Assembly (NCBI RefSeq): GCF_019947135.1
Contig: NZ_JAGSHT010000007.1
Span: 186,001-250,000 of the forward strand
Source: Occultella gossypii
Lineage (GTDB): Bacteria; Actinomycetota; Actinomycetes; Actinomycetales; Beutenbergiaceae
Length of the DNA: 64,000 nucleotides
Reading direction: 5' to 3'
Under the pieces are notes generated by a model. The model saw only the letters and a program-made list of their open reading frames with translations. It did not search any database and was not told where the DNA came from. Shown in pieces: positions 8,042 to 64,000 of the stretch. The position numbers and the translations under genes were made by a program. The stretch's first letter is position 1. Each line of letters opens with the position of its first letter.

Positions 8042-11000
8042 TCAGCCCACGTTCTCGTGCAGCCGCTGACTGATCAGGGTCGTGACGCCGTCGCCGCGCA
8101 TGGTGACCCCGTACAGGGCGTCCGCGATCTCCATGGTGCGCTTCTGGTGGGTGACCACGATGAGCTGGGAGTCCTCCTGCAGCTCGCGGAAGATATCCAG
8201 CAGGCGGCCGAGGTTCACGTCGTCGAGCGCGGCCTCCACCTCGTCCATCACGTAGAACGGGCTCGGCCGGGCCTTGAAGATCGCGACCAGGAGGGCCACC
8301 GCGGTGAGCGAGCGCTCGCCACCGGAGAGCAGCGAGAGCCGCTTGACCTTCTTCCCGGGCGGGCGGGCCTCCACCTCGATGCCGGTGGTGAGCATGTTCT
8401 CCGGGTCGGTGAGGATGAGCCGGCCGTCCCCGCCGGGGAACAGCCGCGAGAAGACCCCCTCGAACTGTTCGGCCGTGTCCCGATAGGCCTCGGTGAACAC
8501 CCGCTCGACCCGCTCGTCGATCTGCTTGACGATCTCCAGGAGGTCCGCGCGGGACTTCTTCAGGTCGTTCAGCTGCTCGGTGAGGAACCGGTGCCGCTCC
8601 TCGAGCGCGGCGTGCTCCTCGAGGGCGAGCGGGTTCACCCGCCCGAGCAGGGACAGCGCCCGCTCGGCCGAGCGCAGTCGCTTCTCCTGCTCCGCGCGTA
8701 CGTACGGGCGCGGCTCGGGCACCTCGTCCTCGGGCGTGCCCGGTGCGGGCACGGCGGGCACCAGTTGGTCCGGCCCGTACTCGGCGACGAGCACCTGCGG
8801 GTCCAGCCCCAGCTCCTCGACGGCGCGCTGCTCGTACTGCTCGATCCGCAGCTTCTGCTGGGCCCGCGCCACCTCGTCGCGGTGCACCACGTCGGTGAGC
8901 TCGGAATACTGCTTGGACAGTTCGTCCAGGTCCGCCCGCACCGTGGTCAGCTCCGCATCCCGCTGGGCGCGGGCGTCCTCGGCCTGCTGCCGCTGGGTGT
9001 GGGCGAGGGCAAGGGATGACTCGATCTGCTCGAGCGCGCGGGCGGCACCGGCCCGGACGGCGGCCGCCACCCGGGACTGTTCGGCGCGGCGGCGGGCGCG
9101 CTGGGCGGCCACCTCACGCGCGTGCCGCTCCGCCTTCGCGGCCCGTTCGAGGGACTCGGCGCGACCGGAGATCGCCCGGACCCGCTCCTCCACGGTGCGC
9201 AGCACGAGCCGGGCGTCGGTCTCCTTCGCACGGGTGGCGGTCGCCGCGGCCGCGGTCGCGTCCCGCGCGGCGGTGGCGCCCTCCAGATCCGTCGCGGCCT
9301 GGTCCGGCTCGCGCTGGGCATGCTGGAGCCGTTCGGCGATCTCCGCCAGCTCGGCGGCGTACGTGGTCCGCTTGGCCTCGGCGGCCTCGATGGCCGGCCG
9401 GACCCGCTCGGCCTCGGCGGTGGCGGCCCGCAGCGCGGACCCATGCTGGCCGAGCTTCTCCGAGACCGCGGCGAGCTGCGCGTCGGAGTCGTGCAGCGCG
9501 GTCAGGGTGAGGTCCGCCTCGGCCTTCGCGTCCGCCTGCGCCTGCTTCGCCGGGCCGAGCGCGAACCGGGTCTGCTCGGCCCGGGCGATCGCGGCCGTGA
9601 GCTCGGTCTGTGCCTCCTCGCGGGCGGCGTGCACCTCGAGCACGCTCGGACCACCGGGGCTGCCGCCGCGGGCGTCGGTGTGGCTGAGCACGTCGCCGTC
9701 ACTGGTGACCACGACGAGTCCGGCGCCGTCGGCCGCCGGGGCGCCGGCCAGGGCCGCCCGCGCCGAGCGCAGGTCCTCGACGACCACGACCCCGCGCAAC
9801 AGCCGGGCCACGGTCGGCGCCATCGGACCCTCGACCCGAACGAGGTCACGCGCCCACCGACCACCGGCGGGCGCCTCGCCGAGCGAGCCGGCGCCGTCGG
9901 GCTCCGCCGCGATCGCCAGCCGGGCCTGCCCCGCGTCCTGCTCGCGAACGTGCCGGAGCGCGTCGACGGCGACCTCGACGGACTCGACGGCGGCCGCGTC
10001 GGCGAGCGGCCCGAGCGCCGCGGCGATCGCGTTCTCGAAACCGGGTTCGACGGTGAGCACGTCGGCGAGCGAGCCGAGCACACCCGGGACCGGGTTCCCC
10101 TCGAGCAGCGAGCCGGTGCCGTCCTTGCGGGCCAGGGACAGGTCGAGGGCATCGCGTCGCGCGGTCCAGGTGGCGCGGGCTCCCTCAGCCTCCCGCTCCG
10201 CCTCCTGCAGCTCGCGAACCTTCTCGGTGGCGGCCTCGAGCGTGGCGAGGGCAGCCTCGTGGGCCTCATCGAGGCCCTCCTCACCCTCCTGGGCGCCGAC
10301 GGCCTGTTGTTCCAGGGCGGCGAACGCCTGCTGTGCGGTCTCGGCCCGCTCGACGGCGGAGTCCAGGTTCGCGCGCAGGCGTTGCAGTTCCGCCTCGGTC
10401 GCCTCGAGGCGGCTGCGCCGGGCGCCGACCTGGCCGGTGAGTTGAGCGAGGCCCTCCCGGCGGTCCGCGACGCCGCGGTGAACGGCCGCGAGCGCCCGTT
10501 CGCCCTCGGCCGCCTTCTCCTCCGCGAACCGGCGTTCGGTGGTCGCGGCCTCGAGGTCTGCGCGCGCTTTGCCGATCTCGGTGTCCAGATCCGCCTCGGC
10601 CTGCCGGGCCCGGCGGGCCTGGGCGTCGAGATCGTCCGGGTCCCGGCGGGACTGCTCGGACTCGACAGGTCCGCCGAGGAGGCGGCAGCGCTCGGCGGCG
10701 AGCGTGTGCGTGCCGCGCAACCGCTCGCGCAGGCTGGACAGCCGGTACCACTGCTCGGTGGCGTCGGACAGGTGCGGGGCGGCGGCGGCCGCGGCGGCCT
10801 CCAGGTCCGTGAGCCGGGCCCGAGCCTGCTGCTGCGCGGTCTCCACCTCGGCCCGCTTGGCCCGCAGCGCGGTCTCGTCGGCGACCTCCTGCGCGAGGGT
10901 GGAGGTGAGCTGGACGAGGTCGTCGGCGAGCAGGCGGGCGCGGGCGTCGCGCAGGTCCACCTGGACCACCTGGGCCCGGCGGGCCACGTCGGCCTGCTTC

Positions 11001-23350: not shown

Positions 23351-25746
23351 TGGTTCTTGATGGTGGCGGAGATGGCGAGGCGGGCGTCCGGCCGCGTGCT
23401 CGCCACGGTGGCGACGGCGACGACGGCGAGGAGCACGAGCGGGGAGGCGGCGTAGGCGAGCCAGGGATCCGCGACCAGGTGCAGCTCGGACAGGCCGATG
23501 CCCGAGAGGAACACTCCGGCGAGGCCGCCGCCGAGCACCTTCGCACCGACCGCACCGACGAGCACGCCGGCGGCGAGCACCGCCGCGGACCGGACCACGT
23601 ACTGGATCTGCACCTGGCGGTCACGGAAGCCGAGCGCCCTCATCACGCCGATCCCGAAGGCGTCACGAACGATCAGCAGCCTCATGAACAGGGCCGTGAT
23701 CAGCGCGGCCACGGCGAACCCGATGGCGAGCGCCGCGATGGCGACGGTGCGCAGGGAGTCGATGGTGCCGCCCATGCTGGCGTCGACGAAGTCACGCACC
23801 GAACTGACCTCGAGCTCGGGGTACGCCGCGGCGTACCTCGCGATCGTCGTGGGCACGTCGACGCCACGGTCGACGTCGGCGTAGACGGTGCTCCCCAAGA
23901 GGTCGGCACTGGTGTGCGGGCCGACCATCTTCGCGGTCCGCCCGCCGTTGGTGATGTCCTGGTAGATCCCGGTGACGGTCAGTTCGAGCGCGCCCGATGA
24001 CTCCGGGACGGGCGCGACCGGGGTCACGGCGATCCGGTCCCCCACCGCGGCACCGAGCGCGTCAGCCTGCAGCCGGGAGAGGGCGATCTGGGTGTCGGCG
24101 GTCGGAGCGACGCCCTCGGAGTAGGTGAGCGGGAACGCGGCCAGGTCCCCGGACTCGATCTTCACGATGGCGGGCACGCCATCGGCATCGAGGGCCGTGT
24201 AGGAAGCCGTGGTGAACATGGCATGGCCGGTCACCTGCGGGTCCTGCGCCAGATCGCGGTCTAGGTCGGCGATCCGGCCGGTGGTCGCGCCGCCCTGGGC
24301 ATCGACCCGGAGGTCGCTGACGCCGGCGCCCATGTAGGTGACGAACGTCGGGGCGGTCACCGTGGTGTGCAGGTTCTGCGGGAGGATCAGGATGAACGCG
24401 CCGAGGGCGTAGACCACGAGCGGGACCAGGTACAGGGCGGGGCGCCGGAGCAGGTCCCGCAGACCGAGCCGGACCGGGGCCCCGGGGCGGTCGCCGAGCG
24501 CGGAGAGCAACCGCGCCGGGCGGCGGCGCGAGGCCGAGGCAGCGGGTTCACCGGTGCGGATCGCCTGGACCGGGGAGACGGTCTGCAGGCGCCGGAGCGT
24601 GCTCCGGACCGCGAGCGCGACCACGGCGACGATCAGGGCACTCAGCCCGGCGCCGACGAGGAAGGCGGGCAGGGCGCGGCCGGCCGGCCCGAAGTAGAGC
24701 AGCACGTCGGCCAGGAGCAGCTGGTTCAGCGCGAGCGAGCCGATCAGGCCGACCACGGCACCGGCCGCGGCGAGGACGAGGTACCGGCGCGTGTAGAGCC
24801 GGCGCAGGTCCCGGTCGCGGACGCCGATCGCCTTGAGGACCCCGATCTCCCGGTAGTCACGGTCGAGCGTGGTGAGCAGGGTGAACCGCACGCAGAGCAG
24901 GGCGATCGCGACCAGGAGCACCGTGACCAAGGTGATGATCACCGAGATGATCCCCCCGGACAGGGAGTTGACCAGGACGAAGAGGGTCCAGGTGATCGTC
25001 GGCCCGTTCGCCTCCAGCCCCGCGGCCTGGTACTCGGTCTCGAACTGCCCGACGGCGTCGGCGTCGGTGAGGCGGAACTGGATCAGGTACTCGATGGCAC
25101 CGGCCGGGCCGACGGCGGTCGTCAGCTCCTCGAGGTCGGTGGCGGAGACGAGCAGCCGCTTGGACGAGGCGTAGGAGGAGTTCATCTGGGAGTCCCGCAG
25201 GAACCCGGCCACGGCCAGCTCCACGTGCCCGCCCGGGCCGGACACGGTGAGAACCTGACCCTCCGCCAGGCCAAGCAGCTGCTGGTAGAACAGCGGCAGC
25301 CAGACGGTGCCGGGCTCGGGGTCGATGACTGCGCCGTCGGTGTCCAGGAGCAGGTCGAACTGCTCGTTCTGGGTCACGAACGCGTCGTCCTGCAGCCCGG
25401 GGGCCAGGGTGGTGTCGGTGCCCTCGCCGGTGACCCGGATGGCGGAGGAGTCCACGTTCAGCATCGGGACCACGTCGTGGGCGTCCACCAGGGGGTTGCC
25501 GGCGGCGAACGCGGCGATCCGCCCCTCATCGACGGACCCGGCGTGCATCTGCAGGAAGTGCGGCGTCTGTGCTCGCTGCATGAGCGCGGCACTGGCGCCG
25601 GTGACGGTGACGATCAGCGCGCCCGCCGAACTCGCGAGTGCGGCGGACAGCGCCACGAACAGCACCAGGACGACGGCGGTCGTCGGGTTGCGCCGGATGG
25701 CGTTTCGAGTGAGCTGGCTCAGGACCTGCCCCTGGCTCGGGTTCAT
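23347..25746 (-). CDS. FtsX-like ABC permease
   Basis: Large membrane subunit (799 residues) with two FtsX-like halves: an N-terminal helix, an extracytoplasmic domain (about 60-270), a block of helices (about 275-395), a second helix near 440, another extracytoplasmic domain, and a C-terminal block of three helices. Segments such as DRDYREIGVLKAIGVRDRDL and AFGIGVMRALGFRDRQV are the repeated coupling motifs of this family. It overlaps the ATPase gene downstream by 4 bp, so the two form one transporter. This layout is typical of actinobacterial exporters often linked to antibiotic or cell-envelope stress, but no regulator is adjacent. Confidence 0.92.
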   Translation of the reverse strand: MNPSQGQVLSQLTRNAIRRNPTTAVVLVLFVALSAALASSAGALIVTVTGASAALMQRAQTPHFLQMHAGSVDEGRIAAFAAGNPLVDAHDVVPMLNVDSSAIRVTGEGTDTTLAPGLQDDAFVTQNEQFDLLLDTDGAVIDPEPGTVWLPLFYQQLLGLAEGQVLTVSGPGGHVELAVAGFLRDSQMNSSYASSKRLLVSATDLEELTTAVGPAGAIEYLIQFRLTDADAVGQFETEYQAAGLEANGPTITWTLFVLVNSLSGGIISVIITLVTVLLVAIALLCVRFTLLTTLDRDYREIGVLKAIGVRDRDLRRLYTRRYLVLAAAGAVVGLIGSLALNQLLLADVLLYFGPAGRALPAFLVGAGLSALIVAVVALAVRSTLRRLQTVSPVQAIRTGEPAASASRRRPARLLSALGDRPGAPVRLGLRDLLRRPALYLVPLVVYALGAFILILPQNLHTTVTAPTFVTYMGAGVSDLRVDAQGGATTGRIADLDRDLAQDPQVTGHAMFTTASYTALDADGVPAIVKIESGDLAAFPLTYSEGVAPTADTQIALSRLQADALGAAVGDRIAVTPVAPVPESSGALELTVTGIYQDITNGGRTAKMVGPHTSADLLGSTVYADVDRGVDVPTTIARYAAAYPELEVSSVRDFVDASMGGTIDSLRTVAIAALAIGFAVAALITALFMRLLIVRDAFGIGVMRALGFRDRQVQIQYVVRSAAVLAAGVLVGAVGAKVLGGGLAGVFLSGIGLSELHLVADPWLAYAASPLVLLAVVAVATVASTRPDARLAISATIKNQ

Positions 25747-50089: not shown

Positions 50090-50662
50090 ATGTCTGAACT
50101 GACGGTGGACGTGATCACCTCGCTCGACGGTTATGGAGCCGCTGAGGGCTGGCCGGGGTTCTGGGGCATGGAGGGCCCCGAGTACTTCGAGTGGATGGCG
50201 AGTGAACCGACCGACTACACAGTGCTGATGGGTCGCAAGACCTACGAGCTGATGTCCGGGTTCGCCAGTAGTGGCGCGGAGGACGTCGGACCGCTGGACA
50301 GCCTGCCGAAGGTCGTGTTCTCATCGACGCTCTCGGAGCCGCTGGGCTGGCGGAACACTCGGCTGGTCAGCGGAGACGCCGTCGAGGCGGTCCGGGCGAT
50401 GAAGCAGGACGGGGCCACGCTGCGTACCCTCGGGAGCCTCTCGCTGTGCCGCGCGCTGCTCACCGCTGGGCTGGTCGACCGGTTCCGGGTCGTGGTGTTC
50501 CCGGTGGTGAACGGGGCGACCGGTTACGACAACATCTACGCAGACTGGCCCGACGTGCGGCTCGACCTGCTGGACCAGAAGGTGTTCGACGGCCGGCTTC
50601 AGATGCTCGAGTACCGGCCGACGGTGCTCGACGGGCCGCCCGGCGCACCAGCCCCCGCGTAG
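50090..50662 (+). CDS. Dihydrofolate reductase-family protein (RibD C-terminal-like)
   Basis: A 190-residue protein of the RibD_C/DHFR fold: VDVITSLDGYGAAEGWP at the start, VLMGRKTYELMSGF (about 44-57), LPKVVFSSTL, and C-terminal LVDRFRVVVFPVVNG. These stand-alone relatives (YyaP/YwjB group) are NAD(P)H-binding reductases of unknown substrate rather than the essential folate enzyme. ATG at 50090 has GGAGG 9 bases upstream. It is divergent from ileS and monocistronic, converging with the GNAT/ligase genes. Confidence 0.85.
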   Translation: MSELTVDVITSLDGYGAAEGWPGFWGMEGPEYFEWMASEPTDYTVLMGRKTYELMSGFASSGAEDVGPLDSLPKVVFSSTLSEPLGWRNTRLVSGDAVEAVRAMKQDGATLRTLGSLSLCRALLTAGLVDRFRVVVFPVVNGATGYDNIYADWPDVRLDLLDQKVFDGRLQMLEYRPTVLDGPPGAPAPA

Positions 50663-53476: not shown

Positions 53477-53544
53477 GCCCGCGAGCCTAACCGCCACGCG
53501 AGGTCAACTACGCTCGACCCGATCCGACCGTCGAGGAGATGCCA

Positions 53545-54684
53545 GTGCCACGCATGCGCGAACTGCCGCCCCTGCCCTTGACGCATTCCGGCGAGTGGCC
53601 CGACCGCCGCGCGGAGCTCGTCGACGCGTTCGCGCGGCACGTGTACGGGCGGACACCCACCGGCGGGACCACCGCAGGAGTCGAGGATCGCGGCTCCGTG
53701 GCGGTGCGGGGCGGGCGCCGGTCGGACCTGGACGTCACCGTCACCGGCCCGCTCGGGGAACGCGTCGTGCCGGTCCTCGTGCACGTGCCCGAGGGGGCAA
53801 CGGGCCCAGTCCCCGTGGTCATCGGCCTGAACTTCGCCGGCAACCACACCACGACACCGGCACCGGGCGTGCGGATCCACCGCAACGCCGGGACCGAGCG
53901 GGGCGCGCGGGCGTCCCGGTGGCCGTACGAGGAGATCCTGCGTCGGGGCTACGCGGTCGCCACCGCGCACTGCGACGACCTCGAGGTCGATGCTCCCGGT
54001 CACGCGGACGACGGCGTGCGGGGCCTGTTCCCCGGCGACCCGGCCGACCCCGCGGGCTGGGGCACGATCGGTGCGTGGGCGTGGGGGCTCAGCCGGATCC
54101 TCGACGCCGTCGCCGAGGTCCCCGGGATCGACCCGGCCGCGGCCGTGGCGATCGGGCACTCCCGGCTCGGCAAGGCGGCCCTCTGGGCGGGCGCGCAGGA
54201 CGAGCGGTTCGCCGTCGTGGTGTCCAACGACTCCGGCTGCGGCGGAGCGGCCCTGCACCGGCACCGCGGGCCAGGCAAGGAGACCATCGCCGCCATCACC
54301 ACGAGCTTCCCGCACTGGTTCGCGCCCGGCTTCGCCCGCTACGCCGACCGTGAGGACGACCTGCCGGTGGATGCCCACCAGCTGCTCGCGCTCATCGCAC
54401 CCCGCGCCCTGCATGTGGCGAGCGCGGTCGAGGACGCGTGGGCGGACCCGCTCGGCGAGTACCTGGCCACCGTGGCCGCCTCGCCGGCCTACGAATCGTT
54501 CGATCTCACGGGCACCCGGGTCGATGGCGAGGAGCCCGTGTCACTACCGGCCCTGGGTGAGCGGGTCGAGGGCCGCCTCTCCTATCACGTGCGATCCGGC
54601 GGCCACGACCTCACCGCCGAGGACTGGGGCCACGCGCTGGACGCGGCCGACGGCGTGCTCAAGGTCGCAGGGCCGCACCGGTGA
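53545..54684 (+). CDS. Glucuronoyl esterase-like alpha/beta hydrolase (CE15-type)
   Basis: Hydrolase (379 residues) resembling carbohydrate esterase family 15. The nucleophile elbow GHSRLGKAALWAG (about 203) and VSNDSGCGGAALHRHRG next to it, plus FPHWFAPGFARY and late HDLTAEDW with the catalytic His, are the hallmarks; these enzymes cut ester links between glucuronate and lignin alcohols. There is no signal peptide, so it would act inside the cell on imported small esters. GTG at 53545 has GAGGAG 6-7 bases upstream; the ATG at 53539 abuts that site. It overlaps the convergent flavoprotein gene by 26 bp. Confidence 0.8.
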   Translation: MPRMRELPPLPLTHSGEWPDRRAELVDAFARHVYGRTPTGGTTAGVEDRGSVAVRGGRRSDLDVTVTGPLGERVVPVLVHVPEGATGPVPVVIGLNFAGNHTTTPAPGVRIHRNAGTERGARASRWPYEEILRRGYAVATAHCDDLEVDAPGHADDGVRGLFPGDPADPAGWGTIGAWAWGLSRILDAVAEVPGIDPAAAVAIGHSRLGKAALWAGAQDERFAVVVSNDSGCGGAALHRHRGPGKETIAAITTSFPHWFAPGFARYADREDDLPVDAHQLLALIAPRALHVASAVEDAWADPLGEYLATVAASPAYESFDLTGTRVDGEEPVSLPALGERVEGRLSYHVRSGGHDLTAEDWGHALDAADGVLKVAGPHR

Positions 54685-56002
54685 CGGCCGGCCCGGACGC
54701 CTGCGGGGCATGCGGCGTCCCGGGGTCACCTGGCACGATCGCACCCTGCGCGCGGATGGCGTTCCGGACCTCCGCCACGCCCACCCGGGTGGCTCCCCCG
54801 GCCGGCCCGGCAAGGGCCGCGAGCGCACCCACGGCCTGTCCCATCGCCATGCAGGAAGCCTGCACCCGGGCCGCGGAGTTCGCGACCCGGTCCGCGCTGA
54901 GCGAGCGGCCGGCCACGACGATCCGCTCGCTGCCCGCGGGGATCAGCGCCCGCAGCGGGATGGTCGGGAACGTGCCGACCTCGAGCATCCGGAAGTCCAC
55001 CCCGGCGCCGTCCGCGCGGTGGATGTCGATCGGGAAGTAGCTGTAGCTCACGGCGTCCTCCCACAGCCGGCCGGACGCGTAGTCCTCGCCGGTGACGGTG
55101 ACCAGACCCTCGATCATCGAGGTCTCGCGGATACCGGTCTCGAGGGCAGCCCAGTCGACCGTGGTGGCGCCGAGACGCGGCTGGCCCTTGAGGAACGTGA
55201 GGATCCGCAGGAGCGCGGCCCGGCCGGCCATCTCCGCGTCCGTTCGTTCGGCGCTGGTGGCGCCCTTGATGCCGGTCACGTGGATCGCGTTGAGGCCCCT
55301 GTTGCGCAGCAGCGTCCGCAGCGGCGCATCGGCGCTGCTGAAGTCCTGCGCCCGCAGTCGCCCGTCGGCGACGGCCCGGGTGTACTCCACGTCCAGGGCG
55401 TCCAGGTCGAGGGCCTCGAAGTCATACCCACCGAGGCGGACCATCAGCGTGCCCGGCTGCAGCTCCTCGTGCTGGCGGCGGGGCAGACCGGCCTGACCCA
55501 CCACATTCGCGTCGCCGGTGGCGTCGACGACCATCGCGGCGCGCACCCGGACCAGCCCCTCCTTGGTGCACAGGGTCAGGTCGCAGCCGTCCGGATCCTG
55601 CGCTATGTCCCCGAGCATCGTGTGCATGAGGACGTCCACCCCGGCGTCTGTCACCAGCTCGTCGAGGACCGCGGAGTAGATCACCGGCGTCACCCGCACG
55701 GACAGCTTCCAGTGCGGACGATCCCAGTCGGTGAAGTCCGGCAGCGCGTCTCCCGCGAGCGACACCGCTCGTGTCACGGCGTCCCAGCCGATGCCTGCGA
55801 TGACCTGCCGGCCCCACGCGTGGAAGAGCGACGTCGTGAACACGCCGGCCACGGTGGTGGTGCCGCCGAGGGCGCCGTTCTTCTCCACCAGGAGCGTGCG
55901 CGCCCCCATCCGGGCCGCCTGGACCGCAGCCGGGTATCCGGCCGGGCCTCCTCCGATGACCACCACGTCGTACGGCTCGGCCAGGTCAGGTGCGGTACCC
56001 AC
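54659..56002 (-). CDS. FAD-dependent oxidoreductase (FAD_oxidored family)
   Basis: Flavoprotein (447 residues) with an N-terminal dinucleotide loop VVIGGGPAGYPAAVQAAR (about 13-30), LLVEKNGALGGTTT, a mid motif VVDATGDANVVGQAG and the C-terminal GRSLSADRVANSAARVQASCM followed by AVGALAAL, the pattern of the FAD_oxidored (PF12831) group. Members oxidise or dehydrate sugar acids or are linked to polysaccharide use, but the substrate is unknown. Downstream of iclR on the same strand with a 47-bp gap. Uncertain whether it shares the iclR promoter. Confidence 0.85.
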   Translation of the reverse strand: MGTAPDLAEPYDVVVIGGGPAGYPAAVQAARMGARTLLVEKNGALGGTTTVAGVFTTSLFHAWGRQVIAGIGWDAVTRAVSLAGDALPDFTDWDRPHWKLSVRVTPVIYSAVLDELVTDAGVDVLMHTMLGDIAQDPDGCDLTLCTKEGLVRVRAAMVVDATGDANVVGQAGLPRRQHEELQPGTLMVRLGGYDFEALDLDALDVEYTRAVADGRLRAQDFSSADAPLRTLLRNRGLNAIHVTGIKGATSAERTDAEMAGRAALLRILTFLKGQPRLGATTVDWAALETGIRETSMIEGLVTVTGEDYASGRLWEDAVSYSYFPIDIHRADGAGVDFRMLEVGTFPTIPLRALIPAGSERIVVAGRSLSADRVANSAARVQASCMAMGQAVGALAALAGPAGGATRVGVAEVRNAIRAQGAIVPGDPGTPHAPQASGPAVTGAALRP

Positions 56003-56049
56003 TCATCGTCTCCCTCGACGTCGATGTCTCGTTGGTGAACACGCTCGTC

Positions 56050-56829
56050 CTACGCAGGTAGCGTGTGCTCGCCGAGACGCTGTGCGAGCTCCCCGGCCGC
56101 CTGCTGCAGCTCGTGACGACACCGGTCCGCCTGCTCCGCGGAGAACCGCGCGGTGGTGCCGCTCACGGAGAGCGCCGCGACCACCTCGCCGTCGCGGTCG
56201 AACACCGGCACGGCGACGCAGCGGACGCCGAGGATGTACTCGCCGTCGTCCTCGGCCCAGCCCCGCTCCCGGGCCGCCGCGACGTCCGCCCGCAACGACG
56301 CGACGTCGGGCCGGGTGTGCTCGGTGAAGACCTCGAGCCCGCCGTTCCCGTAGAGCTCGGTCAGGCCGGCATCGTCCAGGGCCGTGAGCAGCGCCTTGCC
56401 GAGGCCGGTGGCGTGGCAGGGCAGGCGCGCTCCGATGCGCTGGTCGAACACGAGTTTGTGGGTGCCGTGACTCTTGGCGAGGCAGACCTGGTCCGCGCCG
56501 GACCGGATCGCGAGCCGGACCGTCTCGCCCGTCGAGTCCCGCACGGCGTCCATGAACGGGCGCGCCCGTTGGCTCAGGCTCTGTGCGCCGTCGTAGGCCT
56601 GGCCGACCTCCCAGGCGCGCAGGCCAAGGGTCACCCGCATGGTGACGGGATCGCGCTCGGCCCAGCCGGCTTCGACCAGTGCGCCGATCAGGTGATGCGC
56701 GCTCGACTTCGGCAGATCGAGCGCCACCGCCACCTCGGTGAGACTCAGGCTCTCGGAGTCGGCAAGCAGCTCCAGCACCCGCAGGCCGCGGGCGAGCGCA
56801 GGTGCGCCGGTGCGTCGTTCGGTGTCCAC
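56050..56829 (-). CDS. IclR-family transcriptional regulator
   Basis: Regulator (259 residues): N-terminal winged helix (RGLRVLELLADSESLSLTEVA, LDLPKSSAHHLIGALVEAGW) and a C-terminal IclR effector domain (about 75-255; LPCHATGLGKALLTAL, GVRCVAVPVFDRDGEVVAALSVSG). GTG at 56829 has AGGGG 8 bases upstream; a GTG seven codons earlier is possible. It is divergent from the amidohydrolase gene and has a TCGTTC-N8-GAACGA palindrome in its own promoter; the same half-site layout recurs at 61909 and 63100, which marks likely regulon members. The effector is probably an organic or sugar acid, by family analogy. Confidence 0.93.
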   Translation of the reverse strand: MDTERRTGAPALARGLRVLELLADSESLSLTEVAVALDLPKSSAHHLIGALVEAGWAERDPVTMRVTLGLRAWEVGQAYDGAQSLSQRARPFMDAVRDSTGETVRLAIRSGADQVCLAKSHGTHKLVFDQRIGARLPCHATGLGKALLTALDDAGLTELYGNGGLEVFTEHTRPDVASLRADVAAARERGWAEDDGEYILGVRCVAVPVFDRDGEVVAALSVSGTTARFSAEQADRCRHELQQAAGELAQRLGEHTLPA

Positions 56830-56842
56830 TACTGATCCCCTG

Positions 56843-56862
56843 TCGTTCACTCTGTCGAACGA
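56843..56862. promoter_or_regulatory. IclR operator candidate TCGTTC-N8-GAACGA
   Basis: Perfect 6-bp arms with an 8-base spacer overlap the region just upstream of iclR (14 bp from its preferred start) and face the divergent amidohydrolase gene. The inner GTTC-N8-GAAC recurs at 61910-61925 and 63101-63116. Confidence 0.65.
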
Positions 56863-56974
56863 TACTTCACCATGGACAACCTGGCCGCCCCGTCGCCACG
56901 CAGCCCCGTGGTATCGCGAAGGGCCGGCTCGCTAGGCTTTCCGCGCACGCCCCGCCGGCCCGAGGAGTCGTCCC

Positions 56975-57832
56975 GTGATCATCGACGCGCACGCCCACGC
57001 TTGGGCGCGCTGGCCCTATCCGGCCGCCGTGCCGGACCCGCTCACCCGCGGCAGCGTCGGCTCGCTGCTGTACGAGATGGACGCGGCCGGCGTGGACCGG
57101 GCGCTGGTGGTCTGCGCCGGGATCGGCGGCGGTGAGGACCGCACTGACAACACCCGCAACAACGACTACGTCCTGACCGCCGCGGCCGAGCACCCGGATC
57201 GCCTGAGTGTCGCCCTCGACGTGGACTCGCGATGGACACCCGAGTACCACCTTCCCGGCGCGCCCCAGCGGCTGGCGAGGGCGCTCGCGGAGGCGGGCGA
57301 CGCCGTCGGGCAGGTGGTCGGGGTGACCCACTACCTCACGGACGAGACCGACGACTGGTTCGGAAGCGACGACGCTGACGGCTTCCTCTCCACGCTCGCC
57401 GCACATGGTCTGCTCCTCTCGCTGCACGCGCGGCCGGCGTGGTTCGGGGCCGTCGCCGCGGCGGCGCGAGCGCACCCGGACGTGGCGGTGCTGATCCACC
57501 ATCAGGGCCACGTCGATGCCGATGCACCGGGCGAGGTCGCGGCCCTGCGTGACCTCGCAACGGTGGCGAACGTGTACGTGAAGGTCAGCGGGTTCCACTA
57601 CCTCACCGAGCGCACGTGGGACTTCCCCTACCCCGACCGGCGCGTGCTGGCGGATCTGCTGGAGCACTTCGGGCCGCAGCGGCTGGCGTGGGGATCGGAC
57701 TTCCCGGTCTCCCGTCCGCACCTGACCTATCGGCAGACCCTGGAGGCAGTCCGGGCGCATTCAGGGCTCGACGGCGGATCCTCGGCCGCCGTACTCGGCG
57801 GCACCATGGCGGGGCTGCTCGGGCTCGGCTGA
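56975..57832 (+). CDS. Amidohydrolase-2-family metal-dependent hydrolase
   Basis: TIM-barrel hydrolase (285 residues) of the amidohydrolase-2 type (decarboxylases and lactonases such as LigI-like proteins). Metal ligands: IDAHAHAWARWP (about 3-14), LSLHARPAWFG (about 148), LIHHQGHVDAD (about 172) and WGSDFPVSRPH (about 231). GTG at 56975 has GAGGAG 7 bases upstream. It is divergent from iclR across a 145-bp region with the operator. Lactone hydrolysis in sugar-acid breakdown would fit the cluster, but is inference. Confidence 0.86.
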   Translation: MIIDAHAHAWARWPYPAAVPDPLTRGSVGSLLYEMDAAGVDRALVVCAGIGGGEDRTDNTRNNDYVLTAAAEHPDRLSVALDVDSRWTPEYHLPGAPQRLARALAEAGDAVGQVVGVTHYLTDETDDWFGSDDADGFLSTLAAHGLLLSLHARPAWFGAVAAAARAHPDVAVLIHHQGHVDADAPGEVAALRDLATVANVYVKVSGFHYLTERTWDFPYPDRRVLADLLEHFGPQRLAWGSDFPVSRPHLTYRQTLEAVRAHSGLDGGSSAAVLGGTMAGLLGLG

Positions 57833-57834
57833 GG

Positions 57835-58716
57835 TCAGCTTGAGAAGGGCTCCAGCGCGCCGCTGAAGTCCAGTTCGTCCGGCTCGAGCCACTGGGCCAC
57901 GACCTCGGTCACGGCCTCGACATGCGTTGAGTCGGCGACCACGAGCTGCACCTCGAGCAGTCCGCTGACGCCGCTGCCGGTCGACAGCAGGTCCAACTCC
58001 TCCCAGACGGCGTTGAGAGCGTCCTGCGCCGCGCGGATCTCGGACTGCAGCGGCAGGTCGCTGGTCTGCACGCACAGCGGCCCGGCGTAGACCTCGCGGA
58101 AATCCTCCCGGGCCTCGGTCGCGTCGCCGGAGACGAGCACGTTCATCACGTCGCCACCGCCGGAGACGTAACTGAGCACGTACCCGTCGTAGGCCTCGAG
58201 GAGCATCATCAGGTCCGACTGCTGGGTGAGCAGGTCGGTGCCCTCGGGCCCACCGCCGGCCTGGGTCTCGTCGTCACACAGCTCCGGGAACTCGAGGGGT
58301 TCGGGCGTCGGCGCCACCCACCCGGCCGGCGGCTCGGAGGTCGGCGGCTCGGTCAACGTGAAGGAGGTCCCGTCGTAGGTGCCGACTACCCAGGCGTCGC
58401 CCCAGGTCCGTCCAGAGGCCGATTCGTGGTCCAGCGTGTCCCAGCGCTCGAAGCCGATCAGTTCGGGTCCAGCGCACTGGGGCGGGTACGACGTCAGGAT
58501 GCCGCCGAGACAGATCTCGGCCGGCTCACCATCGACCTGCATGATCGTGCCGACGCCGACCAGGACCTCGCCGGCCGGGTCGGAGTTGGTGCCACTGATC
58601 GTCGGACCACCGTCCGACGGGCCGCCGCTGCCCGGTGAACCGCCGAGCCCACCGCACGCCGCAAGCACCAGCCCCGCGACCACGCCCAGTGCCGCTCCCA
58701 CCCACCGTCGCCCCAT
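57835..58716 (-). CDS. Lipoprotein of unknown function
   Basis: Predicted lipoprotein (293 residues): MGRR, hydrophobic stretch, lipobox LAAC with Cys21, then a Gly/Ser/Pro-rich linker. The mature part is acidic with four or so more Cys that may form disulfides outside the cell (CLGG, PPQCAG, ELCDDE, GPLCVQ). I recognise no family; the design suggests a surface or binding protein. It lies 2 bp after the amidohydrolase stop on the opposite strand and 69 bp upstream of the ABC permease stop; co-transcription with neighbours is not indicated. Confidence 0.75.
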   Translation of the reverse strand: MGRRWVGAALGVVAGLVLAACGGLGGSPGSGGPSDGGPTISGTNSDPAGEVLVGVGTIMQVDGEPAEICLGGILTSYPPQCAGPELIGFERWDTLDHESASGRTWGDAWVVGTYDGTSFTLTEPPTSEPPAGWVAPTPEPLEFPELCDDETQAGGGPEGTDLLTQQSDLMMLLEAYDGYVLSYVSGGGDVMNVLVSGDATEAREDFREVYAGPLCVQTSDLPLQSEIRAAQDALNAVWEELDLLSTGSGVSGLLEVQLVVADSTHVEAVTEVVAQWLEPDELDFSGALEPFSS

Positions 58717-58785
58717 GCCGAGCCTCCCTCGTCCTACCGGGCTTATGTCGCGCGCGCCGCCTGGATTGCAGGAACGGGGTACCCG

Positions 58786-59616
58786 TCAGCCCTTCAAGCC
58801 GCTCGCGAAGCCCTTGATGATGTACTTCTGCAGCAGGAAGTAGACGATCAGCACCGGCAGGATCGCCATCACGATGCCCGCGAACGTCATGCCCCAGTTC
58901 GTCGCGTACTCACCGCGGAACGCGTAGATCGCCACGGTCAGGGTTCGCTTGTCCGAGCCGCCGAGGTAGAGCAGCGGGGTCAGGAAGTCGTTCCAGATAT
59001 TGATGGCGTTGATGATGATCACCGTGCCGGTCACCGGCCGCAACAGCGGGAACGCGATCCTCGAGTAAACCTGCCACTGCGAGGCGCCGTCCACCCGAGC
59101 CGCCTCCTCGTAGGTCGGTGACTGAGCGCGCAGGAAGCCGGTGTACAGGAAAATCGTGATCGGCAGCAGCGACCCGACGTGGAACACGATCAGCGAGGTG
59201 TAGGTCTGCAGCAGACCGAGGTCGCGCATCAACGTGTAGAGCGGCACCATGCCCAGTTGCAAGGGGATCATCATCCCGAGCAGGAACAGCATGAGCAGCA
59301 CCCCATGGATGCGACGGCCTCCCCGGACGATGGTGAACGCGGCCGCCGAGCCGATGAGGACCAGCAGCACGATGCTGAGCGAGGTGACCACCACCGAGTT
59401 GGCCAGGGCGCGGCCCAACTCTCCCTCGGCCCAGGCGTTGGTGAAGTTCTCGAGGTTCAGCGACTGCGGCAGCGCGATCGCGGACTCAGCCACCTCCGCC
59501 GAGGACTTGAACGCCATCGTCACCATCACATAGACGGGGAAGATGAACGCGACGACGGCCGCGATCATGACGATCTCGAGCCAGATGTTGCTCGCTCCGT
59601 ACCGAATCCGGGACAT
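58786..59616 (-). CDS. ABC sugar transporter permease (MalG type)
   Basis: Second permease (276 residues, six predicted helices) of an importer. The EAA loop reads YEEAARVDGASQWQVYSRIAFPLLRP (shown by YEEAARVDGASQW), and the C-terminus ends in FLLQKYIIKGFASGLKG, typical for CUT1 permeases. ATG at 59616 overlaps the preceding stop (TGATG). No ATPase gene follows: the next genes are an unrelated lipoprotein and hydrolase, so the importer must borrow an ATPase. Confidence 0.93.
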   Translation of the reverse strand: MSRIRYGASNIWLEIVMIAAVVAFIFPVYVMVTMAFKSSAEVAESAIALPQSLNLENFTNAWAEGELGRALANSVVVTSLSIVLLVLIGSAAAFTIVRGGRRIHGVLLMLFLLGMMIPLQLGMVPLYTLMRDLGLLQTYTSLIVFHVGSLLPITIFLYTGFLRAQSPTYEEAARVDGASQWQVYSRIAFPLLRPVTGTVIIINAINIWNDFLTPLLYLGGSDKRTLTVAIYAFRGEYATNWGMTFAGIVMAILPVLIVYFLLQKYIIKGFASGLKG

Positions 59617-60542
59617 CACGCCTCCACCTCGCCGCGTCGAGTCGCCGAGATCTGCACGAAGGCGATCATCGCCACGATCATCGTCAGCACGAGTGCGATC
59701 GCGGTGCCGTAGCCGTAGTGGCCGAGCACGAACACCTCGCGGTACATCAGCAGGGAGAGGGTCTCGGTGGCGTATCCGGGCCCACCGCTGGTCATCACGA
59801 AGACCTGGTCGAAGAGCTTCAGTCCGCCGATCATGGTCAGCGCCAGCACGATCGTGGTGGCCTGCCCGATCATCGGCCTGGTGATGCTCCAGAACCGGCG
59901 CCACCGGCCGGCCCCGTTGAGCGAGGCAGCCTCGTACAGTTCCTCCGGCACCCCCTGCAGGCCGGCGAGGAAGATCACCATGGACAGCCCCACGTGCTGC
60001 CACACGACGGTCACGATGACCGACCACAGCGCGACCGACGAGTCCCCCAGCCAGTTCTGGACCAGGGCATCGAGCCCGATACCGGATAGCACCGTGTCGA
60101 TCGGCCCGCCTCGCGAGTACATGAACTGCCAGAGCACGCCGATCGCGATCGGGGGCAACAGCATCGGGGCGAAGAACAGGGTGCGCAGCAGGTTCCGCGA
60201 GCGGATGGCGGTGTTCAGTGCCAGTGCCAGCACGAGCCCGAGCAGGCTCTGTCCGATCACCACCGCCACGGACAGTACGAGCGTGTTTCGCAGCGAGGCG
60301 AGTGCGCGCTCGTCCTGGACGAGCTCGGCGAAGTTCGCGCCGCCGATGAACGAGGGGTAGGGCCCACCGTTCCAGTCGGTGAACGCGTAGTAAGCACCGG
60401 ACAGGCTCGGGTAGACGACCACGACGCCGTAGGCGACCAGGGCGGGCACGATGAACCACCACGAGACCCTGGTCCGTGGTCGGCGCCGCCGCTCCGGCTG
60501 ACGTGCCAGGCCACCCAGCGGCGCAGTCTGGACTGACGTCAC
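59616..60542 (-). CDS. ABC sugar transporter permease (MalF type)
   Basis: First permease (308 residues) with an Arg-rich N-terminus, six predicted helices (first: WFIVPALVAYGVVVVYP), and an EAA loop with LYEAASLNGAGRWRRFWSI. The GTG start overlaps the binding-protein stop (GTGA). Order lipoprotein-permease-permease is the usual CUT1 carbohydrate importer layout. Substrate unknown, but neighbours (CE15-like esterase, flavoprotein, zinc dehydrogenase) suggest a uronate- or alcohol-type sugar derivative. Confidence 0.93.
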   Translation of the reverse strand: MTSVQTAPLGGLARQPERRRRPRTRVSWWFIVPALVAYGVVVVYPSLSGAYYAFTDWNGGPYPSFIGGANFAELVQDERALASLRNTLVLSVAVVIGQSLLGLVLALALNTAIRSRNLLRTLFFAPMLLPPIAIGVLWQFMYSRGGPIDTVLSGIGLDALVQNWLGDSSVALWSVIVTVVWQHVGLSMVIFLAGLQGVPEELYEAASLNGAGRWRRFWSITRPMIGQATTIVLALTMIGGLKLFDQVFVMTSGGPGYATETLSLLMYREVFVLGHYGYGTAIALVLTMIVAMIAFVQISATRRGEVEA

Positions 60543-61840
60543 GCGCCGTCCCCGAAGGCCGCATCCATCTCGGCCAGCAGCTCATCGATGGTCTTGGTTC
60601 CCTCGACCACCTGTTGGCCGGTCGCCATCAGCACCTGTTGCACCTCACCGTTCGGCCAGAGGTGATTGGCGAACGGCGTGGTCCGGTCCTCGTCCCGGAA
60701 CACCTGCAGCACGTCGTTCAGGTCGTTGTCGACCGGGTCCGCGTTCGCGAGCGCGGGCACCATCGCGGTCTCCTCCGCATACTGCGCCGCACGGGCCGGG
60801 TCGGAGAGGTACTCCAGGAAGGCCAGCGCAGTCGGGGCGTTCTCAGCATTGGCGTTCACCACGAGGTAGTCGGGCGAGAACGGGGTCCAGGTCTCGGCCG
60901 GGTCGTCGGTGGCCGGGAGGGCGAAGATGCCGATGTCGTCGAGCCCACCGGGCGCGTAGTCCGCGAGCACCGCAGCCGACCCGGAGGTGAGCGCGATCAT
61001 CGCGGCATCCCCGGTTCCGACCTGCTGGATCGTTTGGTCGCTCGCGACGCCGAGCGGCTGGTCGGTGGTGTAGCCGAGCTCGATCAGGGAGAGGAACTTC
61101 TCCCAGGTCTCATGCCACCCCTCCGACTCCGCGAACGTCGTCTCGCCGGCCGCACGCTGCTCGATGAAGTCGGGGTCGAGGTTCGCCACGAGCGACGCCG
61201 AGAGCATGTACGGGATGAACTGGATGTACGCGGGTGTGCCCAGCCCGAGCGCGATCGGCGTCGTGCCCGCGGCCTTGATCTGTTCGCAGACGTCGAGGAA
61301 CTCGGTCCACGTGGTCGGCACCTCGACGCCGACCTCCTCGAAGACGCTCCGGTTGTAGAACATCAGGAGCCCCTGGCCGCTCATCGGGTACGCGAACAGG
61401 CCGTCGTCGTTGCTCATCAGGGGCAGGAACGAGTCCGGCACCTGCTCGACCCACGGCTGGTCGGACAGGTCCATGACGTTGCCCTCGCCGGCCAGCGAGA
61501 GGACGGCCGACGGTACCGACGAACCCGGCGCCGAACGGAACATGTCCGGCGCGGTCCCGGACGTGATCTGGATCCGCAGCTGCTCGTTCAGGGAGTCGAC
61601 CTGCTGGAACTCGGCGTCGATGGTCGCCCCGGTCTCCTCCTCGAACTGGTCGTAGAAGAGTTCCAGGCCGCGGTTCTGCTCGGGGCTCGTCGCGAGCGTG
61701 AGCTCACCACCGATCTCCCCGTCTCCCGATCCGTCGGGATCGGAGCCTGGTCCAGTGCTTGACCCGCACGCGACGAGCGTGCCGGCGAGCGCCAGCGCAA
61801 CCACGGGAAAGAGTCCGCGCGAGCGGGACCGACGAGACAT
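60539..61840 (-). CDS. ABC sugar transporter, substrate-binding lipoprotein
   Basis: Solute-binding protein (433 residues) with a lipoprotein signal: MSRRSRSR, hydrophobic run, lipobox TLVAC with Cys about 25, then an acidic Ser/Gly/Asp linker. Features such as YPMSGQGLLMFYNRSVFEEVGV (parts: GQGLLMFYNRSVF) and WTEFLDVCEQIKAAG are those of CUT1 carbohydrate binders. ATG at 61840 has GGAGGG 5 bases upstream. The operator candidate GTTC-N8-GAAC lies 70-85 bp upstream. First gene of the importer operon. Confidence 0.93.
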   Translation of the reverse strand: MSRRSRSRGLFPVVALALAGTLVACGSSTGPGSDPDGSGDGEIGGELTLATSPEQNRGLELFYDQFEEETGATIDAEFQQVDSLNEQLRIQITSGTAPDMFRSAPGSSVPSAVLSLAGEGNVMDLSDQPWVEQVPDSFLPLMSNDDGLFAYPMSGQGLLMFYNRSVFEEVGVEVPTTWTEFLDVCEQIKAAGTTPIALGLGTPAYIQFIPYMLSASLVANLDPDFIEQRAAGETTFAESEGWHETWEKFLSLIELGYTTDQPLGVASDQTIQQVGTGDAAMIALTSGSAAVLADYAPGGLDDIGIFALPATDDPAETWTPFSPDYLVVNANAENAPTALAFLEYLSDPARAAQYAEETAMVPALANADPVDNDLNDVLQVFRDEDRTTPFANHLWPNGEVQQVLMATGQQVVEGTKTIDELLAEMDAAFGDGA

Positions 61841-61908
61841 AACGCCCTCCATTGATGCGAGATGTGGTTCCGGCTCGGATTCCGGGCCGAACGGAACACC
61901 ATCGGTGG

Positions 61909-61928
61909 CGTTCCATATGTTGAACTGC
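61909..61928. promoter_or_regulatory. IclR operator candidate upstream of importer operon
   Basis: Read towards the binding-protein gene: GCAGTTCA-ac-ATA-tg-GAACG. It carries GTTC-N8-GAAC and matches 16 of 20 bases of the site at 63100-63119. Confidence 0.6.
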
Positions 61929-62047
61929 AGTTTGTTCAGGTGAACCCACGTTAGCACCGGCTCATGACGACAGCTCCGGTGACCCCGTTCAGGTGGATCG
62001 GCCCAGGCGTCGAACCGGTGCCCGTCGAAGGCCCGCCGCCGTGTCCC

Positions 62048-63091
62048 TCATGACCGGAGTCGATCCGGCGCGAACGCGACGAGGATCTTGCTCGCGGGGT
62101 CCGAGCCGTCGGCCAGGCCGGCGAACGCGGCCTGCGCCTGTTCGGGGCCGACGGTGCGCGAGATGAGCGGCGCCAGCTCCGCGCTCGCCCCGGCAGCCCA
62201 TGCGGCGGTGTCCGCGAAGTGGACAGGTGCGTAGCAGAACGCGCCGACCAGGGTGCGTTCCGCCGTCGAGATCGCGTAGGCGGGTAGCTCGACGGTCGGT
62301 GCGCCCATGCCGACGAGCACCACGGTGCCGCCGGCCGCCGTCGCGGCGAGTGCGGTCGCCAGGGTCGCGCTCACGCCGACGGCGTCGATGGTGACGTCGA
62401 TCTCGCCGGCCGACTCGTGCACGTCGTCGGCGCCGGGATCGACGACGGCGAACCCGAGCCGGGCGACGAGCGTCCGGCGGGCGGGGTGGGGCTCCGAGAC
62501 GAGGACGGACGCCGCGCCGAGCCGGCGGCAGGCGATCGCGACGGCCTGCCCGATCGGGCCGCCTCCGAGAACGAGCACCCGCGAGTCCGAGTCGACGCCG
62601 CCGCGCAATGCCGCGTGGTAGCCGACCGCGAGGGGCTCGACGAGGGCGCCGACGGCGACATCGCCGGCGAACGGTACGAGGTTGGCCGCGGGGGCCGCGA
62701 GGTAGTCGGCGAACGCGCTCGAGATGGCGGGGTCGACGCCGATCACGCGGCGCCGGGCGCAGATGTGGGCGTTGCCCTCGAGGCAGCGCGCGCACGTGCC
62801 GCAGGCGAGGTTGGGATTCAGTACCACGACGTCACCGAGCGCGTGGCCGGTGGCGCCGTCACCGAGCGCCGCGACGATGCCGACCGTCTCGTGCCCCATG
62901 ACCTGACCGGGCTGGCGACGCCCGTTCTCGCCGGTGTAGCCGTGCAGGTCGGAGCCGCAGATCCCGGTCGCCACGATGCGCACGAGCACCTCCCCCGGCG
63001 CCGGGAGGGGGGTGGGTCGATCCTCAAGGAGGAGGGTGCCGAAGTCGGCGAGCACGAGTGCGCGCATCTGTGCGGGGACGGTCGTGGGCAT
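62048..63091 (-). CDS. Zinc-dependent alcohol/polyol dehydrogenase (MDR family)
   Basis: Medium-chain dehydrogenase (347 residues). Catalytic zinc site: GICGSDLHGYTG (Cys about 43) and GHETVG (His about 68), structural zinc Cys cluster CGTCARCLEGNAHIC (about 98-112) intact, cofactor loop VLGGGPIGQAVAIA (about 172). It resembles sorbitol/threonine/galactitol-type dehydrogenases, so oxidation of a sugar alcohol or sugar acid is likely. ATG at 63091 is chosen; an operator copy ends 9 bp before it, implying a very short leader or a leaderless transcript with a later start (ATG 63067). Confidence 0.9.
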   Translation of the reverse strand: MPTTVPAQMRALVLADFGTLLLEDRPTPLPAPGEVLVRIVATGICGSDLHGYTGENGRRQPGQVMGHETVGIVAALGDGATGHALGDVVVLNPNLACGTCARCLEGNAHICARRRVIGVDPAISSAFADYLAAPAANLVPFAGDVAVGALVEPLAVGYHAALRGGVDSDSRVLVLGGGPIGQAVAIACRRLGAASVLVSEPHPARRTLVARLGFAVVDPGADDVHESAGEIDVTIDAVGVSATLATALAATAAGGTVVLVGMGAPTVELPAYAISTAERTLVGAFCYAPVHFADTAAWAAGASAELAPLISRTVGPEQAQAAFAGLADGSDPASKILVAFAPDRLRS

Positions 63092-63099
63092 CGGTGCCT

Positions 63100-63119
63100 C
63101 GTTCTCTATTGTGAACTGC
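63100..63119. promoter_or_regulatory. IclR operator candidate immediately upstream of the dehydrogenase gene
   Basis: Read towards the gene: GCAGTTCA-ca-ATA-ga-GAACG. GTTC-N8-GAAC (63101-63116) lies 10-25 bp before the ATG, where bound protein could block transcription or initiation. Confidence 0.6.
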
Positions 63120-63200
63120 GTTTCTAGATGCGGAACCACCCTAACGGGCTAGCACTGCCGGTGTCGACGTGCCGAGGCGGTGTCGGAGGTGAGTGACACG

Positions 63201-64000
63201 ATGGGCCGCATGCCGTTGACGACCGTTGCGCTCCCGTTCACCCCCCCGCTCGACGGTGACGCGATGTGGGACTACCTCGCCGCGCGCATCATCGCCGGCG
63301 TCGAGGAGATCGACGCGCACACCTACCGGCGCACGCTGGCGCTGCCGCACGGTCCCGGCGTGATCACGATCGCGCGGCCGGCACCGGGTGCGTCCAGCCT
63401 GAGCCTGGAGGTTTGCGCACATGCCGGGGACCTCGATGCCGCGGCCGCCGCGGCCGGCCGGATCGCAGATCTGGGTGCCGATCCGGCCGCGATCGTCGCC
63501 GGGCTGGGTGAGCATCCGTGGCTCGGACCTCTCGTGCGTGCGCGGCCCGGAGTGCGCGCACCGGGACAGGCGGACGGGTTCGAGATCGCGGTGCGGGCGG
63601 TCCTGGGCCAGCAGGTCTCACTCGCTGCCGCGTGTACGCACACCTCCCGCCTCGCCCGGGCGATCGGGACTCCGCTGGCCGCACCGAGCGGCGCGCTCAC
63701 CCACATGTTCCCGACCCCGGCGCAGCTCGCCCGGGTCGACCCGGACGACGGTGAGACGCTCGCGATGCCAGCCGGGCGCCGTCGGGCCCTGATCGCGCTC
63801 GCCCGGGCCGCCGACGACGGACTCGACCTTGACGGCGGACTCGACGCGGACGAGGCCGAGCGGCGCCTGCTCGCGCTTCCCGGGATCGGGCCGTGGACGA
63901 CGCAGTACGTACGTATGCGCGCTCTCGGCGACCCGGACGCCTACTGTGGCACCGACCTGGTGCTCCGGCGGGCGGCGGAGCGGCTCGCGGGCGCGACGGT
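63201..64000 (+). CDS. alkA: DNA-3-methyladenine glycosylase II (AlkA-like), 3' end beyond window
   Basis: DNA base-excision enzyme removing alkylated bases; 266 residues visible, the C-terminus cut by the right edge. N-terminal AlkA_N-type domain (LPFTPPLDGDAMWDYLAAR), then the helix-hairpin-helix GPD fold: FEIAVRAVLGQQVSLAAA (about 129-146) and LPGIGPWTTQYVRMRALGDP (about 223-242) with the catalytic Asp in YCGTDL shortly after. ATG at 63201 has GGAGG 11 bases upstream; GTG at 63189 is possible. No Ada domain precedes it, so regulation by methylation is not indicated here. Divergent from the zinc dehydrogenase gene. Confidence 0.9.
   Translation, partial: MGRMPLTTVALPFTPPLDGDAMWDYLAARIIAGVEEIDAHTYRRTLALPHGPGVITIARPAPGASSLSLEVCAHAGDLDAAAAAAGRIADLGADPAAIVAGLGEHPWLGPLVRARPGVRAPGQADGFEIAVRAVLGQQVSLAAACTHTSRLARAIGTPLAAPSGALTHMFPTPAQLARVDPDDGETLAMPAGRRRALIALARAADDGLDLDGGLDADEAERRLLALPGIGPWTTQYVRMRALGDPDAYCGTDLVLRRAAERLAGAT

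Follow-up and report, generated by a model that had tools for sequence, protein, structure and literature searches.

The 64,000-nucleotide stretch of Occultella gossypii DNA analysed here (contig NZ_JAGSHT010000007.1, positions 186,001 to 250,000; hereafter the window) carries a gene for an IclR-family regulator next to genes for an FAD-dependent oxidoreductase, a candidate sugar lactonase, a sugar importer and a zinc-dependent dehydrogenase. Three tandem repeats of the dyad GTTC-N8-GAAC are interspersed with these genes, resulting in the following arrangement:

54659-56002, minus strand: FAD-dependent oxidoreductase (Pfam FAD_oxidored), 47 bp from iclR and on the same strand
56050-56829, minus strand: IclR-family regulator (Pfam HTH_IclR and IclR_C), likely start GTG at 56829, orthologues of 60-96% identity
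56845-56880, minus strand: tandem operator before iclR, also divergent to the amidohydrolase gene; proximal dyad 56845-56860, weak distal dyad 56865-56880
56975-57832, plus strand: Amidohydro_2 hydrolase (Pfam), candidate sugar lactonase, divergent from iclR
58786-59619, minus strand: ABC permease B (Pfam BPD_transp_1)
59616-60542, minus strand: ABC permease A (Pfam BPD_transp_1)
60539-61840, minus strand: sugar-binding lipoprotein (SBP) of the ABC importer (Pfam SBP_bac_1), ATG at 61840
61910-61945, minus strand: tandem operator before the SBP operon; proximal dyad 61910-61925, distal dyad 61930-61945
62048-63091, minus strand: zinc-dependent (MDR) dehydrogenase (Pfam ADH_N and ADH_zinc_N)
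63101-63136, minus strand: tandem operator before the dehydrogenase gene; proximal dyad 63101-63116, distal dyad 63121-63136

With 57.2 (HTH_IclR) and 149.1 bits (IclR_C), both above the Pfam cut-offs, the regulator is a member of the IclR family. It reaches none of the NCBIfam cut-offs of the named IclR equivalogs BhcR, PcaR/PcaU, IclR, AllR and KdgR, the best match being BhcR with 198 of 350 bits. A helix segment, LPKS-x-x-HH, is conserved among five aligned IclR orthologues. The FAD oxidoreductase gene probably forms one operon with iclR. The longest iclR open reading frame (start 56850) extends into the dyad at 56845; since the likely start codon is the GTG at 56829, which follows AGGGGAT, this dyad is likely to be situated in the iclR leader.

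The initial annotation had placed the dyad at 56845-56860, 61910-61925 and 63101-63116, and a pattern scan of the window finds it at all three positions. Its remark that the copies at 61910 and 63101 have similar flanks also applies, with 16 of 20 bases around the dyad in common (counted by eye). Each of the three promoter dyads is paired with a weaker copy (one or two mismatches) at an offset of exactly 20 bp, starting at 56865, 61930 and 63121, respectively; this partner is more remote from the start codon than the first dyad and forms a 36-bp tandem operator together with it. In a scan for partners of all window dyads at every offset from 16 to 60 and on both sides, the dyads located in coding DNA at 25366, 50497 and 60369 had none at +20. 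Other partners with two mismatches reside at -28 (56845), at +24 (61910) and at -36 and +36 (60369, coding), leaving offset 20 as the only one common to the three promoter sites. The background frequency in the window is 0.0011 per place for at most one mismatch and 0.0073 for at most two. Tandems with up to two mismatches occupy just four places in the 5.84-Mb genome, three of which are the window sites and the fourth of which lies on contig C35. Allowing three mismatches adds 22 further places genome-wide, compared with five in all for a reversed control pattern at that setting. The centres of the two dyads are 20 nt apart at all 16 aligned sites, an offset that was fixed by the search pattern for all sites except the three in the window.

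The fourth tandem is found at C35:38357-38392, 32 bp from the likely ATG of a gene for an enolase-superfamily protein, which is followed by genes for a Gfo/Idh oxidoreductase and a fumarylacetoacetate-hydrolase (FAH)-type protein. The best named match of the enolase-superfamily protein is L-rhamnonate dehydratase (185 bits, cut-off 393) and that of the FAH-type protein is 2,4-didehydro-3-deoxy-L-rhamnonate hydrolase (311.5 bits, cut-off 500). This operator is conserved in genomes G001 and G002.

In a comparison of orthologous promoters, as suggested in the initial annotation, a tandem with at most two mismatches precedes iclR in all six genomes with an orthologue of the regulator (60-96% protein identity). 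Among these orthologues, that of Occultella aeris is 96% identical, and those of Phytoactinopolyspora alkaliphila, P. halotolerans and Agromyces sp. H66 share 60-66% identity. Four Streptomyces loci with IclR relatives of 29-30% identity lack the tandem at up to three mismatches. O. gossypii itself contains 16 genes with an IclR_C domain, i.e. 15 besides the window iclR, and none of these 15 is preceded by a tandem with up to two mismatches (region searched: between 600 and 100 bp ahead of the domain, offsets 16-30). Genome G003 has neither an IclR orthologue (best match 36%) nor an enolase orthologue, and its single tandem place with up to two mismatches is outside the regulon, leaving it with no regulon site. 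Over seven genomes (O. gossypii, G001, G002, G003, P. alkaliphila, P. halotolerans and Agromyces), 16 of 23 such tandems lie either beside regulon genes or within the iclR cluster. These amount to three of three places in G001, three of four in G002, two of three in P. alkaliphila (iclR and, counted by nearness, an epimerase gene 4.5 kb away) and three of four in Agromyces (iclR, dehydrogenase and, counted by nearness, a GH5-type gene). Locus L049 and contig C57 of G002 were taken as one record and counted once. The reversed control gave 0, 2, 0, 2, 0 and 0 places in G001, G002, G003, P. alkaliphila, P. halotolerans and Agromyces, respectively. Each of the seven places outside the regulon is situated within a stop-free frame exceeding 240 codons; in GC-rich DNA, such a frame is a mere hint of coding. 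The dehydrogenase operator is retained in G001, G002 and Agromyces; G001 and G002 lack the transporter genes at the locus, and the importer operator is absent there as well.

The gene arrangements in more distant relatives contribute a further argument. In P. alkaliphila (L050) the operator is followed by iclR and genes for the dehydrogenase, SBP, permease A, permease B, enolase, Gfo/Idh and a partial amidohydrolase at the end of the locus. The order in P. halotolerans (L051) is permease B, permease A, SBP, dehydrogenase, amidohydrolase, operator, iclR, a gene for an 835-aa protein, enolase, Gfo/Idh, and that in Agromyces (L052) is permease B, permease A, SBP, dehydrogenase, two operators, iclR, a gene for an 841-aa protein, enolase, amidohydrolase, Gfo/Idh, FAH. 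Relatives of the C35 genes (44-60% identity) are thus present in all three loci for enolase and Gfo/Idh and in Agromyces for FAH, and amidohydrolase relatives (40-54% identity) occur in all three. The genes that Occultella carries at two loci, on C29 and on C35, form one cluster elsewhere, with FAH seen in Agromyces only. This clustering of C35 relatives with iclR, dehydrogenase and importer genes supports a single pathway and regulon independently of the motif. The 835- and 841-aa proteins encoded immediately after iclR (L051:10893-13397 and L052:10765-13287) have no Pfam match at E 0.001; possibly, they represent an unknown enzyme of the same pathway.

A weight matrix built exclusively from six Phytoactinopolyspora and Agromyces sites ranks the three window sites highest in the window (33.8, 26.0 and 20.1 on the better strand; next place 3.1) and assigns 36.0 to the C35 site, again on the better strand. 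The highest value in 129,792 bases of other loci from the same genome is 11.2. Upstream of the C35 enolase operator, a third weak dyad may be present 20 bp further out (L031:10378-10413); the outer dyad pair scores 16.4 in O. gossypii, 16.4 in G001 and 9.9 in G002.

The sites have a polarity. The distal dyad carries more mismatches than the proximal one in seven of ten non-redundant sites, the same number in three and fewer in none. With start codons chosen by us, seven of these sites have a proximal dyad centred 13.5-23.5 bp from the start codon; the centre is at -40.5 for the enolase gene and near -78 for the SBP and GH5-type genes. Actinobacterial -10 boxes have the form TANNNT, and such a box occurs within 30 nt upstream of the tandem in eight of the ten sites, against 0.88 expected from base composition. 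It is missing from these 30 nt at the O. gossypii iclR site and at the GH5-type site.

Taken together, it is very probable that the tandem operators are bound by the IclR protein encoded in the window and control the transcription units there as well as the C35 operon. What the DNA itself shows are the tandem sites with their spacing and polarity, how rarely they occur in the genome, their conservation with the iclR orthologue and the gene linkage in relatives. The regulator (56050-56829) would bind the putative 36-bp operators most likely as a dimer of dimers, the centres of the two dyads being 20 bp, or two turns of DNA, apart. It would control its own operon (iclR and the FAD oxidoreductase gene), the importer operon, the dehydrogenase gene and, in trans, the C35 operon for the enolase-superfamily dehydratase, Gfo/Idh oxidoreductase and FAH hydrolase; the divergent amidohydrolase gene is probably included. 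Because most sites are close to the start codon and eight of ten follow a TANNNT box, we infer repression: the bound tetramer would cover the transcription start, and a sugar acid or one of its breakdown products would release the repressor. The initial annotation had proposed a shared IclR operator linking regulator, importer and dehydrogenase. That proposal is supported by the concentration of tandem places at this regulon, tandem conservation, absence from paralogues at up to two mismatches and gene linkage, and not by the rarity on which it had been based; the amidohydrolase, which it also counted in, is favoured by divergent position and synteny alone. The earlier observation was therefore right in part and wrong in its statistics, and its conclusion is supported in a wider form than stated.

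Several observations weigh against this reading. A strict consensus sigma-70 scan of 55900-63400 found no promoter. Three-mismatch tandems are present in the window at 10025 and, with the same offset of 20, at the IclR paralogue L102, and of the four tandem places in P. halotolerans (G150) a single one belongs to the regulon. The six sites underlying the matrix were themselves found by the dyad pattern, and the strand facing the gene scores only 13.9 at the O. gossypii iclR site and 20.3 at the C35 site; as the better strand faces away from the gene at both, the matrix lends no support to polarity there. Conservation is not complete, since G001 and G002 lack the SBP gene and both permease genes at the locus, and the SBP relatives of G001, G002 and G003 share just 39-41% identity. 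As far as enzyme names are concerned, the proteins resemble those of the oxidative L-rhamnose/L-fucose route with scores below the curated cut-offs.

Among the alternatives, the most serious is that the window IclR protein binds these sites and acts as an activator, for which we see a minor yet real chance. The IclR family includes activators of the PcaU and PobR type, and the centres of the Agromyces GH5 site and of the O. gossypii SBP site, near -98 and -78 relative to the start codon, are in line with such a role. However, among the eight other non-redundant sites all but one have their proximal centre 13-24 bp from the start codon (the exception, that of the O. gossypii enolase gene, is at -40.5), and the TANNNT boxes found within 30 nt upstream in eight of ten cases would have transcription start at or ahead of the sites.

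It is unlikely that the window regulon is correctly described and the C35 operon belongs to a separate one. The operon resides on another contig, and another IclR gene is located about 10 kb from the C35 site, which counts against control by the window protein. Upstream of that IclR gene there is no such tandem at up to two mismatches, and the C35 site has the same tandem and polarity as the window sites and is kept in G001 and G002. In addition, enolase and Gfo/Idh relatives belong to the iclR cluster of three distant genomes, and an FAH relative to that of one.

Still less probable is that the sites are genuine and recognized by another protein, be it an IclR paralogue or a member of another family with a similar dyad. 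The 16 IclR_C genes of the genome, including the one near the C35 site, leave room for this, and so does the occurrence of the pattern elsewhere: 17 of 149 searched genomes contain a tandem with up to one mismatch, 14 of them outside the Occultella group. No IclR match was detected within about 1.5 kb of these 14 tandems (L035-L048; tblastn, E 1e-3, 3-kb loci), and for this reason the tandem pattern alone cannot name the protein, a further point against the assignment. We set the 14 loci aside as other systems or chance occurrences. Binding by another protein is nevertheless at odds with the tandem preceding this iclR in six of six genomes and none of the O. gossypii paralogues at up to two mismatches, and with the joint absence of gene and sites from G003.

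In genus g6, a well-conserved tandem dyad of the same form is found in six of eight searched genomes (L035-L040 from G021, G019, G023, G008, G016 and G022, position 1501-1536). In L036, the sole locus whose open reading frames were read, it is located at genes for an XRE-cupin type regulator and an AzlC-like permease (named by eye), which speaks for the other-protein explanation; a different regulator may use the same tandem architecture in this genus.

The single dyad is a different matter. The initial annotation had reported three copies, all in promoters, and had estimated fewer than one per 64 kb by chance. In fact, the window contains six, and the additional three are located inside open frames:

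25366-25381, no strand assigned: lone dyad within a long open frame; a codon match and no operator
50497-50512, no strand assigned: lone dyad within an open frame; a codon match and no operator
60369-60384, no strand assigned: lone dyad within the permease A gene; a codon match and no operator

A pattern search of the whole genome (5,844,339 bases) finds 365 single dyads or about 4.0 per 64 kb, compared with eight copies of the reversed control pattern and 0.42 dyads per window expected from dinucleotide shuffles. The chance estimate thus fails, and many copies genome-wide are just what the initial annotation had named as evidence against its idea. The three coding copies translate as Phe-x3-Asn (FVTQN, FPVVN and FTDWN), and we therefore suspect codon use behind much of the genome-wide excess, extrapolating from these three to the unsorted 365 copies. 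Being common, the single dyad is weak evidence on its own and in this respect a point against the regulon. That all dyads are chance or codon-driven matches without a common regulator, as the 365 genomic copies and the three coding matches among six in the window might suggest, is hardly credible given the +20 partner at the three promoter sites and at no coding one and the scarcity, conservation and top matrix ranking of the tandem.

The enzyme set suggests an oxidative, non-phosphorylating route that would lead from a sugar via lactone, aldonate, 2-keto-3-deoxy acid and diketo acid to pyruvate and a hydroxy acid. Oxidative fucose and rhamnose routes comprise lactonase, dehydratase, 4-dehydrogenase and hydrolase, according to PMC11199699. 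Route 3 for L-fucose and L-rhamnose as given there (FucA-C, F and G; LRA5 and LRA6) involves similar types of lactonase, dehydratase and hydrolase, whereas the operator-linked genes of O. gossypii include Gfo/Idh and zinc-dependent MDR dehydrogenases and no SDR gene was noticed among them. An SDR gene is located behind the epimerase site of P. alkaliphila. Since no match reached a curated cut-off in a test for the L-rhamnonate/L-fuconate pathway (dehydratase 185 of 393, hydrolase 311.5 of 500 and, for the amidohydrolase, L-fucono-1,5-lactonase 37.8 of 400 bits), we do not assign the genes to rhamnose or fucose degradation. The best NCBIfam match of the MDR dehydrogenase is L-idonate 5-dehydrogenase with 158 of 469 bits. 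Tentatively, and without counting on it, we consider that IclR and its tandem operators might control an undescribed variant of an oxidative sugar-acid pathway with Gfo/Idh and zinc MDR dehydrogenases, acting on a sugar from plant or other polysaccharides and split in Occultella over two loci joined only by the operator.

TtgV controls an efflux pump and in this regard differs from the regulator of a sugar regulon considered here. It is an IclR-family tetramer on DNA (Lu et al., 2010, as cited in PMC8222616) and by this description resembles the bound tetramer predicted for the window protein. NpdR from Rhodococcus opacus has the motif GTTCMRYATMRTGAWS in a table of the same paper; the dyad is almost identical, and NpdR serves a trinitrophenol pathway rather than the sugar acids suggested here. 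Suvorova and Gelfand (2021; PMC8222616) list a subgroup NGT-12-ACN (NGTYCRAW4TYGRACN) among IclR group 1 motifs, tandem sites 18-22 nt apart in 94 IclR orthologous groups, and sugar or sugar-acid genes and COG3618 in IclR regulons. The O. gossypii operators have the GTTC-N8-GAAC dyad type and, with 20 nt, a centre spacing in this range. They resemble group 1 in half-site spacing, in tandem sites two turns apart, in sugar and sugar-acid regulon genes and in site centres that fall mostly between -20 and -80 relative to the start; compared with NGT-12-ACN, the outer bases fit and the spacer letters fit in part. A literature search returned no paper title on this regulon, and the orthologous group may be among the 181 in the supplementary tables of PMC8222616. 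Tandem IclR operators and this type of half-site are already published, so that the regulon is a well-supported further example of a familiar form of gene control.

For an IclR orthologue group found in three actinobacterial genera, the analysis thus offers a compact operator of two dyads 20 bp apart and four candidate transcription units, including one on a separate contig. It assigns the enolase-Gfo/Idh-FAH operon to the pathway of the importer and the candidate lactonase, which narrows the search for the substrate. In this GC-rich genome, a lone GTTC-N8-GAAC is common and unfit as sole evidence.

Some neighbouring genes deserve mention. A glucuronoyl-esterase-like gene (53539-54684; Pfam GCE_fung, 117 bits) is situated beside the FAD oxidoreductase gene, lacks a tandem in front at up to three mismatches and is kept in G001 and G002. 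The importer operon (58786-61840) and its operator are restricted to the window genome among four Occultella-group genomes; in G001 and G002, the dehydrogenase and lipoprotein genes are found about 700 bp apart in place of the importer. The predicted lipoprotein encoded between amidohydrolase and importer (57835-58716) has no Pfam match and is about 75% conserved in G001 and G002.

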